Translations under genes and position numbers: made by a program
Part shown: in pieces, positions 4,266 through 16,349 of the stretch
How positions within the stretch are numbered: the first letter of the stretch is position 1
How the letters are laid out: each line of letters begins with the position of its first letter
From: an uncultured Actinomycetes bacterium
GTDB taxonomy: Bacteria; Actinomycetota; Geothermincolia; Fen-727; JACVIW01
Assembly: GCA_937127245.1 (NCBI GenBank)
Contig: CAKZLU010000032.1
Coordinates: 1 to 64,000, forward strand
Reading direction: 5' to 3'
Length of the DNA: 64,000 nucleotides
Notes under the pieces: generated by a model
The model's input: only the letters and a program-made list of their open reading frames with translations
What the model was told of the DNA's origin: nothing
Databases searched by the model: none

Positions 4266-6461
4266 GTGGACTTGTTGTTTTACGGGAGGTTTTCAGGAGA
4301 AAAAAGTGAAAGGGTAAGGAGGGTCGGTGGCTCGCTTGCAGCAACGCGCTCCAGACGCTCCGCAACCTGCGCCGCCCTTGTCTTATTCTTGATTTTAGTT
4401 CTCGCGGTGAAGGTGAGTGCGGTACCGCTTTCGATTGCAGCATCATCAAGAGGCGCAGCCCCGTATAACTTGAGCGTAGGCGAGCCTGACTCAAGTGACG
4501 GCACCTGTATTCTGCTAAGGTGGAATGTGGATTTGCCGCAAGACGTGGCGCGCTACAAGCTGTATCGCGCTGAGGGACAACCAAAATCATTTCGATGCGT
4601 TTATTCATCGCCGGTCAACATGCGTGGCGGCAATCTGATGGATTTCGTTGATGCGGGGCTGACCCCTGGGAATCGCTACTATTATTTCGTTGAGCATTTT
4701 GACGTAAACGGTGTTTCCATCGGGAAAACCAACACAGCCTCATTTGATCTTCCCGACAAAAATTCCTACAAGCCTTCAGCCTACAGGGGTAAGAGGATCG
4801 TCATATCAATAGCCGAGCAGAGGATATATTTCCTCGAGGACGAGGTTCTGGTGCGCTCCCATCTCTGTTCGACCGGTGTCGATTCGCACCCCACCCCTCT
4901 TGGTGTGTTCAAGGTCCTCTATCATCAGTATTTGCTCATCTCTGAGCGCTACGGTGGCGTCTACTGCTACTGGTGGATGGGATTTGCGCCTGATACGGGT
5001 ATGCACGCGATTCCCTACAACCCGAGGACAAAAACGTGGACTGGCGCGTCAATGCTTGGAAAAAAAGCCTCCCATGGATGTGTCAGACAGGCGGTTGCTG
5101 ACGCGGAATGGGCTTACAAGTGGGCTCCCGATGGCACGAGAATAGACATTATCCCTCAGGCTTTCATGCCACCCCAACCTCCTCCCGAGCCTCCGAAGAT
5201 CAAGGGCGGTCACGGTAGCAAGGGGATAAGCGGGCTTTCGAAAGACTGGTATTTTGCCGAAGGATATACGGGCGGGGATTTCAACACATTTATCCTGATC
5301 ATGAACCCGAACCACGAGGAGGCGGTGGTTGACGCTGAGTTTATGAGACCGGATGGATCCATAATCCTCTCGAGGTACCCGGTAAGACCGTTTTCGCGTT
5401 ACACCATCCATTTGAACAAGGTCTCGGGTCTTTCAGGCGTGGAAGTTTCCACGCACCTTCACAGCAACATACCGATCGCGGCTGAACGCGCGATGTACTT
5501 CGAGTATATGGGAAGAAAAGGAGGCAGCGCTTCATGCGGTGTTACAAGCCCTTCTCTCAAATGGTATCTGGCCGAGGGCTATACTGGTAGAGATTTTGAT
5601 GAGTACCTACTTTTCCAAAACCCAACCGGGCAGGAAGCGAGGGCGCGCGTGACATTCATGCTTAAAGACGGCACGAAGGTGAAAAAGGTTTTCACGATAA
5701 ATCTCAAGTCGAGGTTTACCCTTAAGGTGAACGACGTGCCGGAATTAGCAGGGAAGGACGTCTCCACGATGGTGGAGTCGAATGTCGGTGTTATTGTTGA
5801 GCGCGCGCAGTATTTCAAATACGCAGGCAAAGACGACGGCAACGCCTCTGTGGGGGTCAATGAGTTGTCGAGAACATGGTATCTGGCAGAGGGATACACT
5901 GCTGGGGAATTCGATGAGTACATCCTTATCCAGAATCCTTTAAACACTCCCGGTTTTGCAACCGTGAGCTTCATGAGAGAAGACGGCGAGGTCATTCAAG
6001 GACAGTACGAACTCCTTCCGTGCTCGAGGCTCACCATCCGCGTGGATGATATTCCGGGTCTTGAGTCCTGCGAGGTATCGGCGTTTGTCGAGTCAGATGT
6101 GGAAATTGTCTGCGAGCGGGCGATGTACTTCGAAAGTTACGGCAGACCAGGTGGAAGCGACGCTCCCGGCGTGAGCTCCCCGGCTGAGTACTGGTATCTT
6201 GCTGAGGGCTACACCGGCGGGGAGTTTGATACTTACATACTGATTTTAAATCCCAATGACCGGGAGGTTGATGTTGACGTAAATTATCTGCTTACAAACG
6301 GTGGGGTCAAAATCCAGAGGCATCAGGTTAAGCCCCACAGCCGCTACACGATTCACGTGGATGCGGTCGAGGGAATGGAAAACACTGAGTTTTCGACAGC
6401 TTTAACAGGAAGCTTGCCGGTCGTTTGCGAGCGGGCAATGTATTTCTCGATCGTTAAATAA
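4266..6461 (+). CDS. Secreted L,D-transpeptidase with FN3-like domain and four 105-aa repeats
   Basis: Probably cross-links or anchors to peptidoglycan outside the membrane. In order: a basic N-terminus and a hydrophobic signal/anchor segment (about residues 38-54); an FN3-like beta domain (about 70-158); a YkuD L,D-transpeptidase domain (about 170-300) whose SHGCVR motif supplies His270 and catalytic Cys272; a Pro-rich linker; then four tandem repeats. Each repeat opens with WY(L/F)AEGYT at Trp328, 433, 538 and 643, a strict 105-residue period. The repeats end in ERA(M/Q)YF strands and may bind wall polymer. The GTG at 4266 overlaps the GGAGG site; TTG at 4272 or 4275 has better spacing, so the real start is probably there. 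A single-gene unit. Confidence 0.85.
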   Translation: MDLLFYGRFSGEKSERVRRVGGSLAATRSRRSATCAALVLFLILVLAVKVSAVPLSIAASSRGAAPYNLSVGEPDSSDGTCILLRWNVDLPQDVARYKLYRAEGQPKSFRCVYSSPVNMRGGNLMDFVDAGLTPGNRYYYFVEHFDVNGVSIGKTNTASFDLPDKNSYKPSAYRGKRIVISIAEQRIYFLEDEVLVRSHLCSTGVDSHPTPLGVFKVLYHQYLLISERYGGVYCYWWMGFAPDTGMHAIPYNPRTKTWTGASMLGKKASHGCVRQAVADAEWAYKWAPDGTRIDIIPQAFMPPQPPPEPPKIKGGHGSKGISGLSKDWYFAEGYTGGDFNTFILIMNPNHEEAVVDAEFMRPDGSIILSRYPVRPFSRYTIHLNKVSGLSGVEVSTHLHSNIPIAAERAMYFEYMGRKGGSASCGVTSPSLKWYLAEGYTGRDFDEYLLFQNPTGQEARARVTFMLKDGTKVKKVFTINLKSRFTLKVNDVPELAGKDVSTMVESNVGVIVERAQYFKYAGKDDGNASVGVNELSRTWYLAEGYTAGEFDEYILIQNPLNTPGFATVSFMREDGEVIQGQYELLPCSRLTIRVDDIPGLESCEVSAFVESDVEIVCERAMYFESYGRPGGSDAPGVSSPAEYWYLAEGYTGGEFDTYILILNPNDREVDVDVNYLLTNGGVKIQRHQVKPHSRYTIHVDAVEGMENTEFSTALTGSLPVVCERAMYFSIVK

Positions 6462-9356: not shown

Positions 9357-9385
9357 TTGACACATTGAGCTTATGAAGTTATTAT
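9357..9385 (+). promoter_or_regulatory. trp operon promoter
   Basis: A perfect TTGACA at 9357-9362 is followed after exactly 17 bases by TATTAT at 9380-9385. Transcription should start around 9391-9394, which is at or only a few bases before the ATG of the leader peptide (9395). The promoter stands directly upstream of the whole trp gene set. No TrpR-like palindrome is evident. Confidence 0.75.
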
Positions 9386-9394
9386 CATCACACT

Positions 9395-9448
9395 ATGAAA
9401 AGTAAGCGCGCTCTGGTAAGACGATTTTTTTGGTGGGGCTCTCAATAG
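9395..9448 (+). CDS. trpL: trp leader peptide with tandem Trp codons
   Basis: A 17-residue open frame, MKSKRALVRRFFWWGSQ, ends with TAG at 9446-9448. Two adjacent Trp codons (9431-9436) are the classic sensor of charged tRNA-Trp in attenuation. There is no Shine-Dalgarno site, and the predicted transcript starts almost at the AUG, so translation is probably leaderless. Leaderless trp leader peptides are known in some actinobacteria and rhizobia. The downstream hairpins and the trpE start at 9614 make the role clear. Confidence 0.85.
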   Translation: MKSKRALVRRFFWWGSQ

Positions 9449-9532
9449 AGGGTCCTCGCCTTAGCGCGCTGATTTGACTTAAAGAAGCAAAAGGGCAGCG
9501 ACCCTCACAGGTTTGAGGGTCGCGGTTTTTTT
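9405..9532 (+). promoter_or_regulatory. trp attenuator with alternative RNA pairings
   Basis: AGCGCGCT at 9405-9412, inside the leader peptide, can pair with AGCGCGCT at 9463-9470. GAGGGTC at 9448-9454, covering the leader stop codon, can pair with GACCCTC at 9500-9506, which is the 5' arm of the terminator. A ribosome stalled on the Trp codons would leave 9448-9454 free to act as antiterminator. A ribosome at the stop codon would mask it and let the terminator form. This matches classical ribosome-mediated attenuation. Confidence 0.75.
9498..9532 (+). terminator. trp attenuator terminator hairpin 1
   Basis: GCGACCCTCA (9498-9507) and TGAGGGTCGC (9514-9523) form a perfect 10-bp stem with a 6-base loop, then GG and seven T residues. 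It lies between the leader peptide and trpE, so it must be conditional. Confidence 0.85.
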
Positions 9533-9533
9533 G

Positions 9534-9564
9534 AACCGCGACATAAGTCGCGGTTTTTCTTTTT
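9534..9564 (+). terminator. trp leader terminator hairpin 2
   Basis: AACCGCGAC (9534-9542) and GTCGCGGTT (9547-9555) form a perfect 9-bp stem with a 4-base ATAA loop, followed by a T-rich tail to 9564. Its 5' arm could instead pair with GTCGCGGTT at 9519-9527, which overlaps the 3' arm of hairpin 1. The two hairpins are therefore linked through a mutually exclusive third structure. Confidence 0.75.
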
Positions 9565-9613: not shown

Positions 9614-11170
9614 ATGGGCAAGACGGCAAGGGATTATTTAAAGAGAGAGTTAAGCTGGGAATTTTTCTCAATCAGGTATGAGGATTTTCGCAAGCTTGCC
9701 GGTCTATATGATCAGGCAGTCATTTCGGCGGATTTCCCGTCCGATCTCGAGACGCCAGTTTCGGCATTCTTAAAGCTGCGGGGCGACTACCCCTGTTTCC
9801 TGCTTGAGAGCGCGGAACAGGGTGAGAGATGGGGAAGGTATTCGATTCTCGGTTTCGGGTCAACGGCGCCGGTCAAACTGGAGAAAGCCAGGTTGAATTA
9901 TGACGACGATCTTCAAATGTCCTCCACTTGCGCAAACCCAATTCGTGCGGTTTTCAAGCTCGCGCAGGGCACACGCGTTTTCGGATGCCGCAGGGACCTT
10001 CCTTTCACCGGCGGGGCGGTCGGTTATTTCGGGTTTGAAATTTTGAAGCACCTGGATAAATACAGGCTCGGCGAGCGTCGAAAATCAGCGAGCATTCCCG
10101 AGGCGATGTTTATCATTCCCGATAGATTCATAGTCTTTGACCACTTCCTCGGGAAAATGAGTTTGTGCGCGGTCGCGAAGCTTACGACAAGTGAAAAAGA
10201 CCTTGCGCGCGAATATGAAAAAGCCTGCGGGAAAATCCAAAACATGCTCAACGGGCTTGATTCGCACATCAGACGAGAGGGAATTGAAGACTTAAAAAAG
10301 CAAACCGAAGTTGGTGAGGAATCCCTTCAGAGCAACTTATCCAAGGGTGATTTCGAGGACATGGTATCGAAAGCAAAGCGAATGATACTCGATGGAGAGA
10401 TATTTCAGGTCGTGCTCTCCGTGAATTTCAAGACGTCATTTAGGAAAGACCCGTTCTCGATATATCGCGCTCTTAGAAGGGGAAATCCCTCCCCCTACAT
10501 GTTCTATCTCGAGTTTCCGGATCTTACTCTTGTTGGTTCCTCCCCTGAGCCCATGGTTACCAAAAGGGGTGATCGCGCGCTCATAAGACCGATTGCGGGC
10601 ACCAGACCGAGGGGGGCTGGCGCTGAGGAAGACCTCCTGCTTGAACAAGAACTGAAGTCTGATCCGAAGGAAAGAGCCGAGCACGTAATGCTTGTGGACC
10701 TTGCCCGCAACGACCTTTCGAGGGTGTGCCGTTCGGGAACGGTAAAGGTGACGAAACTCATGACTGTGGAGCGCTACTCTCACGTTATGCACCTTGTCAG
10801 CCAGGTGGAAGGCACTTTAAAACAAAACGTTGGTTGCTTTGAGCTTTTAAAGGCTTCTTTTCCCGCGGGGACGGTAAGCGGGGCGCCGAAGATAAGAGCC
10901 TGCCAGATCATAAGTGAACTTGAGCCCGAAGCGAGGGGACCGTATGCCGGAGCTGTGGGTTATTTGAGTTATTCGGGGGATATGGATTTATGCATCGCGA
11001 TCAGGATGGTTGCGCTCCATCAAAAAACCGCGATCGTTCAAGCGGGCGCCGGAATCGTTGCGGATTCTGTTCCGGAAAGGGAATGGGAAGAGGTGAGAAA
11101 CAAGGCTAAGGCGGTGCTCCGGGCGGTTTATTCCGCCAGGGGGAAGGAGGCAGGAAGTAATGAAGCCTAA
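9614..11170 (+). CDS. trpE: Anthranilate synthase component I
   Basis: Converts chorismate to anthranilate using ammonia delivered by TrpG; first step of tryptophan synthesis. The 518-residue protein has the N-terminal regulatory domain with the [15 protein letters not shown] block, where the Ser of LLES belongs to the tryptophan feedback site. It also has the chorismate-binding domain with [21 protein letters not shown] and the C-terminal [12 protein letters not shown] and [13 protein letters not shown] segments. The ATG at 9614 follows GAGGGAAG. First structural gene of the operon; its end overlaps trpG by 11 bases. Confidence 0.97.
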
Positions 11171-11771
11171 CGTTTTGCTCATTGACAACTACGATTCGTT
11201 CACCTACAACCTCGTGCACCTTTTGGAGGAACTCGGCTGCCTTGTTTCCACTTACAGGAATGATGAGGTATGTCTGGAGACGGTCTTGAGTATGGGAGCT
11301 ACGCACATAGTTATTTCTCCAGGTCCGGGAGGTCCTCAAAGCGCGGGCGTATGTCCTAACATCGTCTCGAGAATGGCCGGAGAAATCCCGATTCTCGGCG
11401 TTTGCCTCGGGCATCAGGTCATTGCTGATGTATTCGGAGCTCGTGTTGTCAGAGGACCAAGACCGGTTCACGGAAAGACATCCTGTATCCGCCACGATTC
11501 AAAAACGATTTTCCAGGGAATTGAAAATCCACTTAAGGTAATGCGCTACCACTCACTTGTTGTTGAGCCCTCAAGTATTCCCCCTTGTCTTGAGGTTTCG
11601 AGCATCACCGAAGACGGTGTTGTGATGAGCATAAGACACAGGTCATTTCCCGTTGAGGGGGTTCAGTTCCATCCAGAGTCGATTCTCACACAATCAGGGA
11701 GTCAGATTGTCTCGAATTTTCTGAGATTGTCTTCAATGGAAGGGGTCGAACATGGAATCGCGGGCGCTTGA
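11160..11771 (+). CDS. trpG: Anthranilate synthase glutamine amidotransferase
   Basis: Releases ammonia from glutamine for TrpE. Class I amidotransferase of 203 residues with the IDNYDSFTYNLVH start, the oxyanion segment SPGPGGPQSAG, the nucleophile Cys82 in GVCLGHQ and the His171/Glu173 pair in QFHPES. There is no fusion to trpE or trpD. ATG at 11160 follows AGGAGG and lies inside the end of trpE, and the gene overlaps trpD by 20 bases, which suggests translational coupling. Confidence 0.97.
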   Translation: MKPNVLLIDNYDSFTYNLVHLLEELGCLVSTYRNDEVCLETVLSMGATHIVISPGPGGPQSAGVCPNIVSRMAGEIPILGVCLGHQVIADVFGARVVRGPRPVHGKTSCIRHDSKTIFQGIENPLKVMRYHSLVVEPSSIPPCLEVSSITEDGVVMSIRHRSFPVEGVQFHPESILTQSGSQIVSNFLRLSSMEGVEHGIAGA

Positions 11772-12771
11772 GAGATTGGTTCAGGGCGAAGACCTGTCAA
11801 AAGACGAAGCGCGAAATCTCATGAAATCTATTCTGGATGGCAGGCTTGACGAGCCGGTCACCGCCTCCATTCTTACCGCGCTTAAGATGAAAGGCGAGAC
11901 CGCGGATGAGATTGTTGGTTTCGCCCAGGCGGTAAGGGATGCGCAAATAACCGTGAATCCCGGTGTTGCCCCGGTTGTTGACACTTGCGGCACAGGCGGG
12001 GATAGAAAGGGCACCTTCAACATATCCACGACGACCGCTTTCGTGGTGGCCGCCTGCGGAGTGTATGTGGCGAAGCACGGAAACAGAAGCGTTTCTTCCC
12101 TCTGCGGAAGCGCAGACCTCCTTGCCGAACTTGGAGTTGATATCGACATCGAACCGGACCGCGTGCGGGAGTGCATAAGGGAAACCGGAGTGGGTTTCCT
12201 TTTCGCACCGCGATTCAATCCTTCGCTCGGGAGGGTCATGCCCGTAAGGAGGGCGCTCGGCTTTCCCACGGTGTTCAACATCCTGGGACCGCTTGCCAAT
12301 CCCGCACGCGCGCAAGGGCAAGTTCTGGGCGTCAACAGGGCTGACCTTGTCCCGCTCATTGGTAAGGCGCTTTCCAGTCTGGGAGTGAAAAAAGCGTTCG
12401 TGGTTCACGGGTGTGACGGGATGGATGAGTTCACCATTACTTGCGAATCGATAATCTGCGAGGTGAGTGACGGCAAGACAAAGACCTACACACTTGCTCC
12501 CGAGGACATAGGAATTTCCCGCTATCGTGCTGATGAGCTTCAGGGTGGGGACGCGAGGACAAACGCGCTCATATTCATGGAAATACTGCAGGGAAAAGGC
12601 GGCGCAAGGATGGATGCTGTTGTGGCCAACGCCGCACTCGCGCTCGTCGCCTCAGGTATAGCGAAAACGCCGGGCGAGGGAGTCGAAATTGCTCGGCAGG
12701 CGATTATCTGTGGTGAGGCTTTGAATCGGTTTAAGTGCTTTGCGTCGTTCGCATCCGGGAGGTTCGATTGA
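11752..12771 (+). CDS. trpD: Anthranilate phosphoribosyltransferase
   Basis: Transfers phosphoribose from PRPP to anthranilate. The 339-residue protein has the helical N-terminal domain and the PRPP-binding DTCGTGGDRKGTFNIST motif, then KHGNRSVSS and the NILGPLANPA segment. It is a stand-alone protein of the usual length. The ATG at 11752 is preceded by GGAAGGGG within trpG. Its TGA overlaps the TTG start of trpC. Confidence 0.97.
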   Translation: MESRALERLVQGEDLSKDEARNLMKSILDGRLDEPVTASILTALKMKGETADEIVGFAQAVRDAQITVNPGVAPVVDTCGTGGDRKGTFNISTTTAFVVAACGVYVAKHGNRSVSSLCGSADLLAELGVDIDIEPDRVRECIRETGVGFLFAPRFNPSLGRVMPVRRALGFPTVFNILGPLANPARAQGQVLGVNRADLVPLIGKALSSLGVKKAFVVHGCDGMDEFTITCESIICEVSDGKTKTYTLAPEDIGISRYRADELQGGDARTNALIFMEILQGKGGARMDAVVANAALALVASGIAKTPGEGVEIARQAIICGEALNRFKCFASFASGRFD

Positions 12772-13616
12772 ATTTTCTTGACCGAATGATGGTGATTTCA
12801 AAGAGAGAAGCAGAGGAAAGGAAGAGAATGCTTCCGGTCGAGAATCTCGAGAGGCTAATTGATGATAGACCCGCTCCTCCGTCATTTGGCGCCGCTCTCT
12901 CCCGCAAGGGGGGAGTATTGAAGGTCATAGCCGAGGTGAAGAGAGCTTCCCCGTCTGCCGGGAGAATACGGGGCGAGGTCGACCCTTACTCTCTTGTTGA
13001 CGGGTACCGCAGGGCAGGCGCAGCCGCCGCCTCCATAATAACCTGCGGACGTTATTTTGAAGGGTCACTCGAAGACCTCAAAAGCGCGTCCAATGTGGAA
13101 GCGTTCCCAATCTTGCGAAAGGATTTCGTATCCAATCCCTACCAGGTTCTTGAGTCGAGAGCTTTCGGAGCGTCATCAGTTCTTCTGATCTCCGATGCCC
13201 TTGAGGAGAAAGAGTTAAAAAGACTTATAGCTTTGGCCCTAAGCATTGATCTTGAGCCTCTTGTTGAGGTGCACACATACGACGCATTGGCAAAAGCGCT
13301 GTTCTGCGGAGCGGAAATCATTGGCATTAACAACAGGGATTTGAAAACGCTCGAGGTGGACCTTTCCACGACCGAGAGGTTGATCCGGCACATTCCCGAA
13401 GGGTTCGCGGTCGTAAGCGAAAGCGGCATTAAAACATCTGATGATGCGCGGAGGATGGAGATGCTCGGCGTTGACGCTCTTCTGATAGGAGAGGCTCTCA
13501 TGAGAGCTGAAGACCCTGAAAGAGCGCTCTCTGATTTTATTTCTGAAATCATTTTGCGTTCCTGCGCGAATGCAGGCTCCCAGCCGGATTTAGTTGTACG
13601 GCGAAAGCCGAAATAA
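12768..13616 (+). CDS. trpC: Indole-3-glycerol phosphate synthase
   Basis: Closes the indole ring from carboxyphenylamino-deoxyribulose phosphate. TIM-barrel enzyme of 282 residues with EVKRASPSAG near the N-terminus, the catalytic Lys in PILRKDF, GINNRDLKT and VSESGIKTSDD. I place the start at TTG 12768 because GGGAGG lies at 12757-12762 and the start overlaps the trpD stop (TTGA). The frame is open further upstream, but those codons lie in trpD. The C-terminus has about 20 extra polar residues. Confidence 0.95.
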   Translation: MNFLDRMMVISKREAEERKRMLPVENLERLIDDRPAPPSFGAALSRKGGVLKVIAEVKRASPSAGRIRGEVDPYSLVDGYRRAGAAAASIITCGRYFEGSLEDLKSASNVEAFPILRKDFVSNPYQVLESRAFGASSVLLISDALEEKELKRLIALALSIDLEPLVEVHTYDALAKALFCGAEIIGINNRDLKTLEVDLSTTERLIRHIPEGFAVVSESGIKTSDDARRMEMLGVDALLIGEALMRAEDPERALSDFISEIILRSCANAGSQPDLVVRRKPK

Positions 13617-13635
13617 GCCTTAGGGGGTGATTCTA

Positions 13636-14262
13636 ATGTGGATCAAGATCTGCGGTATCACGAGGCTTTCAGACGCGGTTGCCGCTGCGCGATTCGGTGC
13701 GGACGCGATCGGGTTTATCTTTGCGGAAAGCCCCCGCAGGATTTCTCCCGAAGAGGCAAAGAAAATATCGCTTAAAGTGAAATCTGACATAGCTCGCGTG
13801 GGCGTTTTCGTAAATTCCCCGCTGCGGGAAGTGGAAAGAATAAAAGCGAAGTGCGGGCTTGACCTCGTACAGCTTCACGGGGAGGAAAGCGCCGATTACT
13901 GTTTGGCTTTGGGCGGGGAAATTATTAAGGCGGTTAAAGCCACCTCTTGGGAGGATATATTCAATATCCCCCCTTACCCTTGCAAAGCTCTTCTTCTCGA
14001 GAGAAAGGAAGCCCAAGTCGCGGAAAGCGACATACATTACTTCGACTGGAAACTGGTTAGATTCATGGGTTATGAAAAGCCGGTGATTGTGGCGGGAGGG
14101 CTTAATCCCGCAAATATTTCCAGGGTCATTAAAGAGGCAAGACCTTACGGCGTGGATGTTTCAAGCGGCATAGAGGAGCGTCCCGGCGTGAAGAGCCATG
14201 CCCTGATGTATGAGTTCATTGAGCGGGCAAGAAAGACGGAGTACGCCCTCACCGCGGGTTAG
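13636..14262 (+). CDS. trpF: Phosphoribosylanthranilate isomerase
   Basis: Isomerises phosphoribosylanthranilate by an Amadori rearrangement. The 208-residue TIM barrel starts WIKICGIT, with the general-base Cys, and carries GADAIGFIF, LVQLHGEE and the catalytic Asp in GVDVSSGIE. The usual Gly-rich stretch before the FDW motif is replaced by a more charged segment (ERKEAQVAESDIHYFDW). The ATG at 13636 has AGGGGG eight bases upstream and is preferred to GTG 13627. Confidence 0.95.
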   Translation: MWIKICGITRLSDAVAAARFGADAIGFIFAESPRRISPEEAKKISLKVKSDIARVGVFVNSPLREVERIKAKCGLDLVQLHGEESADYCLALGGEIIKAVKATSWEDIFNIPPYPCKALLLERKEAQVAESDIHYFDWKLVRFMGYEKPVIVAGGLNPANISRVIKEARPYGVDVSSGIEERPGVKSHALMYEFIERARKTEYALTAG

Positions 14263-14305
14263 GGGTCTTTGAGTGATGAGGTAATAGAGAAAGGAAGATT
14301 GATTT

Positions 14306-15568
14306 ATGGAGGAAGATTTAAATCCGTCGAACGGTATAAGCAGAAAGGCAGAAGCGCTTCTGTCGGTCCCGGACCGGGCGGGGTACTTCGGGGAGTACGG
14401 CGGTCGTTTTGTCCCCGAGCCGCTGATTCCCGCGCTCGAGGAACTCGAGGACGCTTTCATCGAAGCGTTTTCGGACTCAAGTTTTCGGGAGGAACTCACT
14501 AACGTTCTGAAGCGTTACGCCGGAAGACCAACGCCCCTTTATCTCGCGAAGAACGCCTCAGAGATTCTCGGCGGGGCAAGGATTTATTTGAAAAGAGAGG
14601 ACCTTTGTCATACCGGCTCGCACAAGGTCAATAACACGGTTGGTCAGTGTCTGTTAGCCAGAAGAATGGAAAAGGAGCGCGTCATCGCGGAAACCGGCGC
14701 CGGTCAGCACGGGGTTGCCTGCGCCACTGCCGCGGCTCTGACGGGTCTTCGCTGCGAGGTTTACATGGGGGAGATCGACATGGAGAGGCAGAGCGTTAAC
14801 GTCTCCAAAATGAGGCTGCTCGGCGCTAAGGTGGTACCGGTCTCATCCGGCAGTAGAACGCTTAAGGACGCGGTAAACGAGGCTTTCAGGGACTGGGTTA
14901 CTAACCTCAAAACAACTCACTATTGCCTAGGCTCAGCGGTGGGACCCCATCCTTTTCCGATGATTGTAAGGAGCCTGCAGTCAGTAATAGGCGAAGAGAC
15001 AATCCGGCAGTGCATGGAGCTCGAAGAAAGGCTTCCCGATATGATTGTCGCTTGCGTTGGCGGCGGGAGCAATTCCATAGGCATGTTTTATCCTTTCATC
15101 GGGCGAGGACCCAGACTCATCGGTGTTGAGGCGGGCGGCATCGGCATAGAACCTGGAATGCACTCAAGCACTCTTCGCAGTGGAGAAGTGGGGATTTTCC
15201 ACGGCATGAAAAGTTATGTGCTTCAGAATCCTGACGGACAGATTTGCACCACTCACTCCGTAAGCGCTGGCTTGGACTATCCCGGAGTCGGACCTGAGCA
15301 CGCATACCTTAAGAGAGAGGGACTCGCGCATTACACCAGCGTAAGAGACGAGGATGCCTTAAGCGCTGCTCTTTTCCTTTCGCGGGTTGAGGGCATAATT
15401 CCGGCTCTTGAAAGCGCGCACGCCCTTGCTTGGGCTTTTTCTCAAGCTGAGAAGATGGAGAAAGATGAGTACATTGTCGTCTGTTTGTCAGGCAGGGGAG
15501 ACAAGGACCTCGAGATAATAGAAAGACATTATCCAGGATTGGGGGGAGAGTGCTTGGGCGATGGGTAG
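14306..15568 (+). CDS. trpB: Tryptophan synthase beta subunit
   Basis: Condenses indole with serine using pyridoxal phosphate. The 420-residue protein is of the common TrpB1 type, about 20 residues longer than average at the N-terminus. PLP attaches to Lys107 in [21 protein letters not shown], the COMM-type segment around MGEIDMERQ, and the phosphate-binding GGGSNSIG are present. ATG 14306 follows AAGGAAG. The gene overlaps trpA by eight bases, as usual for an alpha/beta complex. Confidence 0.97.
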
Positions 15569-16349
15569 AATCCAGGAGATGTTCGGGGAACTTAAAGGCA
15601 AAAGGGCGGCGCTCATAACGTATTTTACCGCCTTTTATCCCGACGAAGAGCAAAGCTATAGGATTGCCATCGCCATGCTCGAGTGCGGTTCGGACGCGCT
15701 CGAAATAGGTATTCCCTTCTCCGATCCCATTCTCGATGGGAAGGTAATACAGCAAACTTCCTCCATAGCGCTCGAGCGCGGGGCAACTCTGGGCAAGGTC
15801 TTAAGGCTATGCGAGAGGATCAGGGAGCGAACCGAAAAGCCTTTGCTTCTCATGGGATACTGTAATCCTATATACCGGTACGGTACTGAGAGGTTTGCCT
15901 CCGATGCGCGGGAGTGCGGCGTTGACGGGATTCTTATTCCGGATCTGCCGATAGATGAAATAGAGCCTTGGAGGAGCGCGCTTTCTTCAAAGGGCATCAA
16001 CACCGTGACCTTCTGCTCGGTGAACGCGAATCCCTTACGAATAAGAAAAGCTTGCGATCTTTCGACCGGATTCATATATTGCTTATCGCTTCTCGGCACC
16101 ACCGGCGTGAGGGACGAGCTTTCAAAGGATGTTTTCCAGCTTGTGAGGATGGTTAAGTCCTGTTCCACGAAGCCCGTGGTTGTTGGAATCGGCATTTCAA
16201 ACGCCCAGCAGTGCGAGGCTGTGGGGGAAGTTGCCGATGGTGTCGTTGTGGGAAGCGCGCTGATGCAGGTTGTGATGCGTGGCGGCGACTACTTAAGCGA
16301 ACTTAAAGCGAAAGTGCGGAGTTTCGCGGAAGCCCTTGCCCGAAGATAG
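15561..16349 (+). CDS. trpA: Tryptophan synthase alpha subunit
   Basis: Cleaves indole-3-glycerol phosphate and channels indole to TrpB. The 262-residue TIM barrel has the catalytic Glu in [11 protein letters not shown] and the catalytic Asp in the following [22 protein letters not shown] and the phosphate-binding GIGISNAQQ complete the signature. The first motif reads [10 protein letters not shown] where most enzymes have YLTAGDPD or similar. Last gene of the operon, only 54 bases from the end of a convergent acyl-CoA dehydrogenase gene. Confidence 0.95.

Follow-up and report, generated by a model that had tools for sequence, protein, structure and literature searches.

A predicted leaderless tryptophan attenuator with two tandem hairpins upstream of trpEGDCFBA in an uncultured class of bacteria

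Background

Leaderless trp attenuators are already known, for example trpL1 of Streptomyces and trpL of Sinorhizobium. Streptomyces lividans, a member of the Actinomycetota, has two leaderless trp leaders, trpL1 and trpL2, and its trpL1/trpE region resembles the locus studied here in having a leaderless peptide with adjacent Trp codons (MFAHSTRNWWWTAHPAAH) and, ahead of trpE, a pair of hairpins and a U-rich stretch (PMC8079986). In contrast to our locus, the S. lividans trpE is monocistronic, and the published description, on which the comparison is based, includes no relay between the hairpins (PMC8079986). According to the accessible part of the paper on Sinorhizobium meliloti trpLE(G), the RNA there has its 5' end at the trpL ATG, consecutive Trp codons are present as in our locus, and Trp-dependent attenuation has been demonstrated; S. 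meliloti differs in being an alphaproteobacterium and in that the RNA and the peptide also act in trans, and that part of the paper describes no second linked hairpin (PMC7298713).

Seliverstov et al. (2005) predicted trp attenuators in Corynebacterium and Streptomyces that share with the present leader a double or triple UGG, an antiterminator near the stop codon and a GC-rich terminator (PMC1262725). One of them lies upstream of trpB2A in C. diphtheriae, much as a trpB2 leader is found in the genome studied here, whereas the predicted attenuators belong to other classes of the phylum and are built on a gGCC-rGCy-GGCC triple instead of the GAGGG/CCCUC type (PMC1262725). Attenuator leader peptides without a ribosome-binding site are also reported for the ilvBNC leader of C. 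glutamicum (Morbach et al. 2000, in PMC4046766) and for mycobacterial polycysteine leaders (Canestrari et al. 2020, in PMC13236596). As outlined in those two later papers, these leaders differ from ours in the amino acids concerned and in architecture.

The pairing scheme of the his leader, reportedly set out by Johnston et al. in 1980, has six segments, with A:B, C:D and E:F formed in the OFF state and B:C and D:E in the ON state. The E+F terminator and region C have been described for the E. coli leader (PMC10065794). As modelled, the present locus shares this six-segment logic with the E. coli and Salmonella his leaders: in addition to a third hairpin (5:6), it can form an alternative helix, 4:5, whose coupling to 2:3 is predicted from complementarity and fold energies. 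The his leader differs in sensing His, in having a Shine-Dalgarno sequence and in that only E:F is a terminator, whereas here both 3:4 and 5:6 are followed by U-tracts and the leader appears to be leaderless. A limited search of the open-access literature found no leaderless trp leader combined with a six-segment scheme.

Results and discussion

The trp operon and its leader

The window, by which we mean the whole 64-kb stretch of DNA that was analyzed, carries a complete trpEGDCFBA operon running in one direction (9614..16349, forward strand, as are all features of the locus given below). Its open reading frames were assigned by Pfam and NCBIfam matches for trpE (9614-11170) and trpB (14306-15568), by Pfam for trpG (11160-11771), trpD (11752-12771), trpF (13627-14262) and trpA (15561-16349), and from sequence and place for trpC (ending at 13616). 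Elsewhere in the window, positions 4266-6461 encode a YkuD L,D-transpeptidase and, after it, roughly four WYLAEGYTGGxFDTYILIxNP-type repeats, which match DUF5719 weakly.

Direct reading places a promoter at 9357..9385, with the -35 box TTGACA at 9357-9362, a 17-nt spacer and the -10 box TATTAT at 9380-9385. The original prediction had called this promoter perfect; its position, its 17-nt spacing and its -35 box stand, while the promoter as a whole matches 11 of 12 consensus bases, the -35 box alone being perfect. A TTGACA-17-TATNAT pattern occurs nowhere else in the 64 kb on either strand (chance expectation 0.01). The leader frame at 9395..9448, from the ATG at 9395-9397 to the UAG stop codon at 9446-9448, encodes 17 residues (MKSKRALVRRFFWWGSQ), and the two adjacent Trp codons that had been ascribed to it are indeed there, at 9431-9436. 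We consider it very likely that this leader is a cis-acting, tryptophan-sensing, ribosome-mediated transcription attenuator of trpEGDCFBA with a leaderless leader peptide.

Pairing segments and the first terminator

Folding of the 146-nt leader is 5.2 SD more stable than that of its dinucleotide shuffles. In the minimum-energy fold, an outer helix A:A' spans 9400..9475 (9400-9403 and 9405-9412 with 9463-9470 and 9472-9475); in 17 of 25 species its pairing beats that of shuffled sequences (z < -1.5). Within it, segment 1 (9435..9443), which takes in part of the second Trp codon and the codons that follow, pairs with segment 2 around the stop codon, and 85% of the alignment cells of this helix 1 are paired. 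Segment 2 (GAGGGTCC..., 9448..9456) has two possible partners, segment 1 in the OFF state and segment 3 in the ON state. The proposal that a GAGGGTC over the leader stop codon can pair with the 5' arm of a 10-bp terminator is borne out by the letters: GAGGGTC (9448-9454), whose first base is the third base of the stop codon, is the complement of GACCCTC (9500-9506) in segment 3 (9498..9507), the 5' arm of terminator 1, whose 10-bp stem (9498-9507/9514-9523) is completed by segment 4 (9514..9532), comprising the 3' arm (9514-9523), GG and a T7 tract that runs to 9532. The device is larger than first outlined. Segments 2, 3 and 4 had been named, and segment 1, the outer helix and hairpin 2 had been missed; the end coordinate 9532 is too short, with a second hairpin and its U-tract lying beyond it at 9533-9558.

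Pairs were counted in an alignment of 19 species, where the OFF structure (1:2, 3:4, 5:6) is paired in 92.7% of cells, falls to 36-44% when the structure is slid, and shows 27 cells with two-sided changes compared with 9.5 in shuffles. We also folded the RNA up to arm 4 in 24 species with a ribosome masked either on the Trp codons or at the stop codon. With the mask on the Trp codons, 2:3 is predicted in all 24 species (8-15 bp; 8 bp in the window), and with the mask at the stop codon the upstream partners of arm 3 are fewer or none in every species. The folds in 24 species and the counts in 19 thus predict mutually exclusive 1:2, 2:3 and 3:4 pairings, with 2:3 favoured when a ribosome occupies the Trp codons, and the modelled pairing geometry is that of a classical attenuator. 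Conservation among the sequences compared gives good support to the Trp codons and to the pairing centred on the stop codon.

Conservation across the class and a decayed copy

Among 31 genomes of the class, 25 (window included) have this trpE, and in all 25 it is preceded by a TTGAC-type promoter, a leader ORF with WW or WWW and downstream pairing segments, so that both the layout and the adjacent Trp codons (two or three of them) that the original prediction had expected in related genomes are present throughout. TrpE identity to the window is about 48-55% among class members, and the shared layout is therefore not a matter of recently shared sequence. In other families of the phylum, 81 regions upstream of trpE-like genes gave no convincing WW leader (two of these regions, at contig ends, were only ~200 nt long); a GC-rich ORF in L076 was taken as chance. 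A covariance model of the leader, searched in 296 genomes, finds class members only, aside from one weak match in G240 that was rejected, having no WW leader. The phylum is taken to be Actinomycetota because WhiB turned up in 32 of the 60 phylum members searched, and the class would be a deep-branching lineage within it; the five class members in that sample lacked WhiB.

Loss of the Trp codons or pairing segments in close relatives, which had been named as evidence against the device, was seen only in the congener G001, whose trp operon has itself decayed. In this genome, the one congener examined, a relic of the operon lies between tldD and an acyl-CoA dehydrogenase gene (L242, G001:C19). 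Only fragments of trpE, trpG, trpD and trpA are left, and trpC, trpF and trpB were not found in the stretch between the two flanking genes. The attenuator is still recognizable (blastn to window positions 9449-9564, 73%), and the relic leader has a frame opening at ATG without adjacent Trp codons, while the trpB2 leader of the same genome has kept its WW. This single case fits the idea that selection acts on the leader while the operon works.

A second hairpin and a proposed relay

Hairpin 2 consists of segment 5 (9533..9542), the 5' arm, and segment 6 (9547..9558), which comprises the 3' arm (9547-9555) and a U-tract. It was found in 24 of 25 species (G019 lacks it), and several f5 species have weak U-tracts at both hairpins. 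Positions 9534-9542 of segment 5 are also complementary to segment 4, the 4:5 helix of 9519-9527 with 9534-9542 being matched at 9 of 9 positions. As modelled, the six segments probably form a relay, with 1:2, 3:4 and 5:6 in the OFF state and 2:3 and 4:5 in the ON state.

The elements themselves, their conservation and the complementarity of their arms can be read directly from the sequences, whereas leaderless initiation, leader translation, Trp sensing, termination at both sites and the relay are inferred in what follows. When Trp-tRNA is ample, the ribosome would reach the stop codon and cover segment 2, or would depart so that 1:2 forms; 3:4 would then form and RNA polymerase would halt at terminator 1 or, having read through it, at terminator 2 (5:6). 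When Trp-tRNA is scarce, the ribosome would stall on the Trp codons and mask segment 1, segment 2 would capture segment 3, and segment 4, freed by 2:3, would capture the emerging segment 5, such that terminator 2 would be disarmed too. Since the decision at terminator 1 precedes the synthesis of arm 5, arm 5 would act only on terminator 2 and on locking of the ON state.

The mean 4:5 energy is -20.3 kcal/mol within species, compared with -16.4 kcal/mol between species and -18.6 kcal/mol when partners are permuted within clades, and 2 of 5000 within-clade permutations were as low as the observed value. Elsewhere in 435 kb of the same genome, 1 of 84 terminators matches arm 4 as strongly. With a stalled ribosome and the RNA present through arm 5, the lowest-energy fold combines 2:3 and 4:5 in 19 of 24 species; in three more this combination is at most 0.9 kcal/mol above the minimum, and G005 and G025 are the exceptions. 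In 18 of 24 species a different fold, in most cases 3:4, has the advantage until arm 5 emerges. Once the full-length RNA with its entire hairpin 2 is considered, the OFF fold usually has the lower energy, and the ON state must therefore be kinetically trapped, as in other attenuators. Estimates of the ON-to-OFF barrier do show trapping; they change little with arm 5 and for this reason have no bearing on the relay.

One possible alternative, which we rate as clearly less probable than the relay while taking it seriously, is a classical four-segment leaderless Trp attenuator in which hairpin 2, a duplicate of hairpin 1, serves only as a fail-safe terminator, with 4:5 complementarity as a by-product. 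Arms 3 and 5, like arms 4 and 6, carry a nearly invariant CCG/CGG core. In the trpE leaders 3:6 is complementary too (24 of 5000 permutations), 4:5 is not consistently stronger than 3:6, and the column counts of the two helices are similar, largely because the CCG/CGG cores hardly vary. The 3:6 complementarity and the similar counts keep duplication a live rival for these leaders. Against it, an independent second terminator would halt transcription even in starvation, and the leaders of a second trp gene point the other way.

Leaders of trpB2, trpF and other loci

The covariance model places an attenuator in the window's own genome at L240 (G000:C41) 1436-1556, upstream of trpB2, a stand-alone gene for a TrpB-like protein (TIGR01415, 671 bits). 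Such trpB2 leaders are present in eight members of the order (L240, L241, L243, L245-L248, L250), namely G000 (the window's genome), G001, G005, G006 and G010, as well as G008, G009 and G012, where they lie on contig ends or short pieces with the start of the same TrpB-like protein visible. All of them encode WW or WWW, and their ATG follows closely on a -10-like box. Their hairpin 2 (ACCCGGUCGCGGACCGGGU type) is not copied from hairpin 1, yet 4:5 (8-11 bp) is kept in all eight and is stronger than 3:6 in all eight, which speaks against duplication as the source of the complementarity. In G005, G006 and G010, moreover, hairpin 1 has no U-tract, so that 2:3 could reach a terminator only by way of 4:5 and trpB2 regulation there would need the relay.

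A third leader (MKMISGTHGFYFWSSL) in G005 precedes an orphan trpF by about 120 nt (L244, G005:C11, 3131-3290, minus strand), with an ATG 6 nt past the -10 box and two tandem hairpins. We give an even chance to the broader reading that this is a class-wide leaderless Trp attenuator, whose two tandem hairpins are both disarmed by a single stalled ribosome through a strand-exchange relay (2:3, then 4:5), and that it is common to a small regulon of the trp operon, trpB2 and orphan trpF in one genome.

Several other sequences were noted in these searches. Between the attenuator and trpF, at L244 3041-3120 (minus strand), there is an inverted repeat (GGGGTCAGACCATTTTCGTTCC / GGAACGAAAATGGTCTGACCCC), and similar motifs (CTGACCCC) occur upstream of several trpE leaders of the class; the repeat may be a mobile element present in several copies. 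Other families of the class have trpB2 leaders of a different type, WWWRxRRGGxCPP (L262-L267, L269-L272, L274-L277, L279), some with a Shine-Dalgarno-like stretch before the start, and the same genomes of these families seem to use both leaderless and Shine-Dalgarno-led Trp leaders. A WW leader (MKSGKAVRAISRVLWWPL) lies on the reverse strand at L249 (G003:C86) 1206-1335, and L251 (G003:C161) holds a second leader-like copy without Trp codons; no trp gene was seen downstream of either on the sequence pieces examined.

Transcription start and leader translation

The distance from the -10 box to the transcription start is 7 +/- 1 in C. glutamicum (PMC3896937). From the usual distance of ~7 nt, the start region is predicted at 9390..9395, and the transcript would begin 0-3 nt ahead of the leader AUG; promoter position likewise predicts a 5' UTR of 0-5 nt for all 25 trpE leaders. 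Direct reading of TATTATCATCACACT finds no Shine-Dalgarno sequence ahead of the AUG, in agreement with the earlier claim that the leader has no ribosome site, and the leader is probably read as a leaderless mRNA. In a genome-wide search for TTGACA/TANNAT promoters 4-10 nt before an ATG there were three matches including the trp leader, the other two being without Trp codons.

It is also conceivable that Trp attenuation is ribosome-mediated with a start farther upstream and a leader translated in another way, a reading in keeping with the ~270 nt before 9357 being non-coding on this strand. We regard this as improbable, since a near-consensus promoter ends 9 nt before the ATG, with no room for a Shine-Dalgarno sequence between the -10 box and the ATG, and since the ATG lies 6-10 nt past the better -10 hexamer in 25 of 25 leaders (G005, G018 and G024 read by hand), a spacing that is kept in divergent species while the sequence changes. 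T-box or TRAP-like mechanisms govern trp genes in other bacteria, and control of this kind with an incidental short ORF is highly improbable here, given adjacent Trp codons in every one of the 25 leaders, pairing centred on the leader stop codon and the lack of any match to Rfam families (T-box, Trp_leader and others) in the window at gathering thresholds.

Conclusions

The predicted attenuator adds an uncultured class to the few known cases of leaderless trp attenuation, with a promoter placed on the leader AUG and kept there across strong divergence. If the relay is true, one translation event would govern two serial terminators, in trp instead of his, a proposal that can be tested directly on those trpB2 leaders whose hairpin 1 is not followed by a U-tract. 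In G001, the decayed copy next to the trp remnants offers a natural experiment on the forces that preserve such an element.
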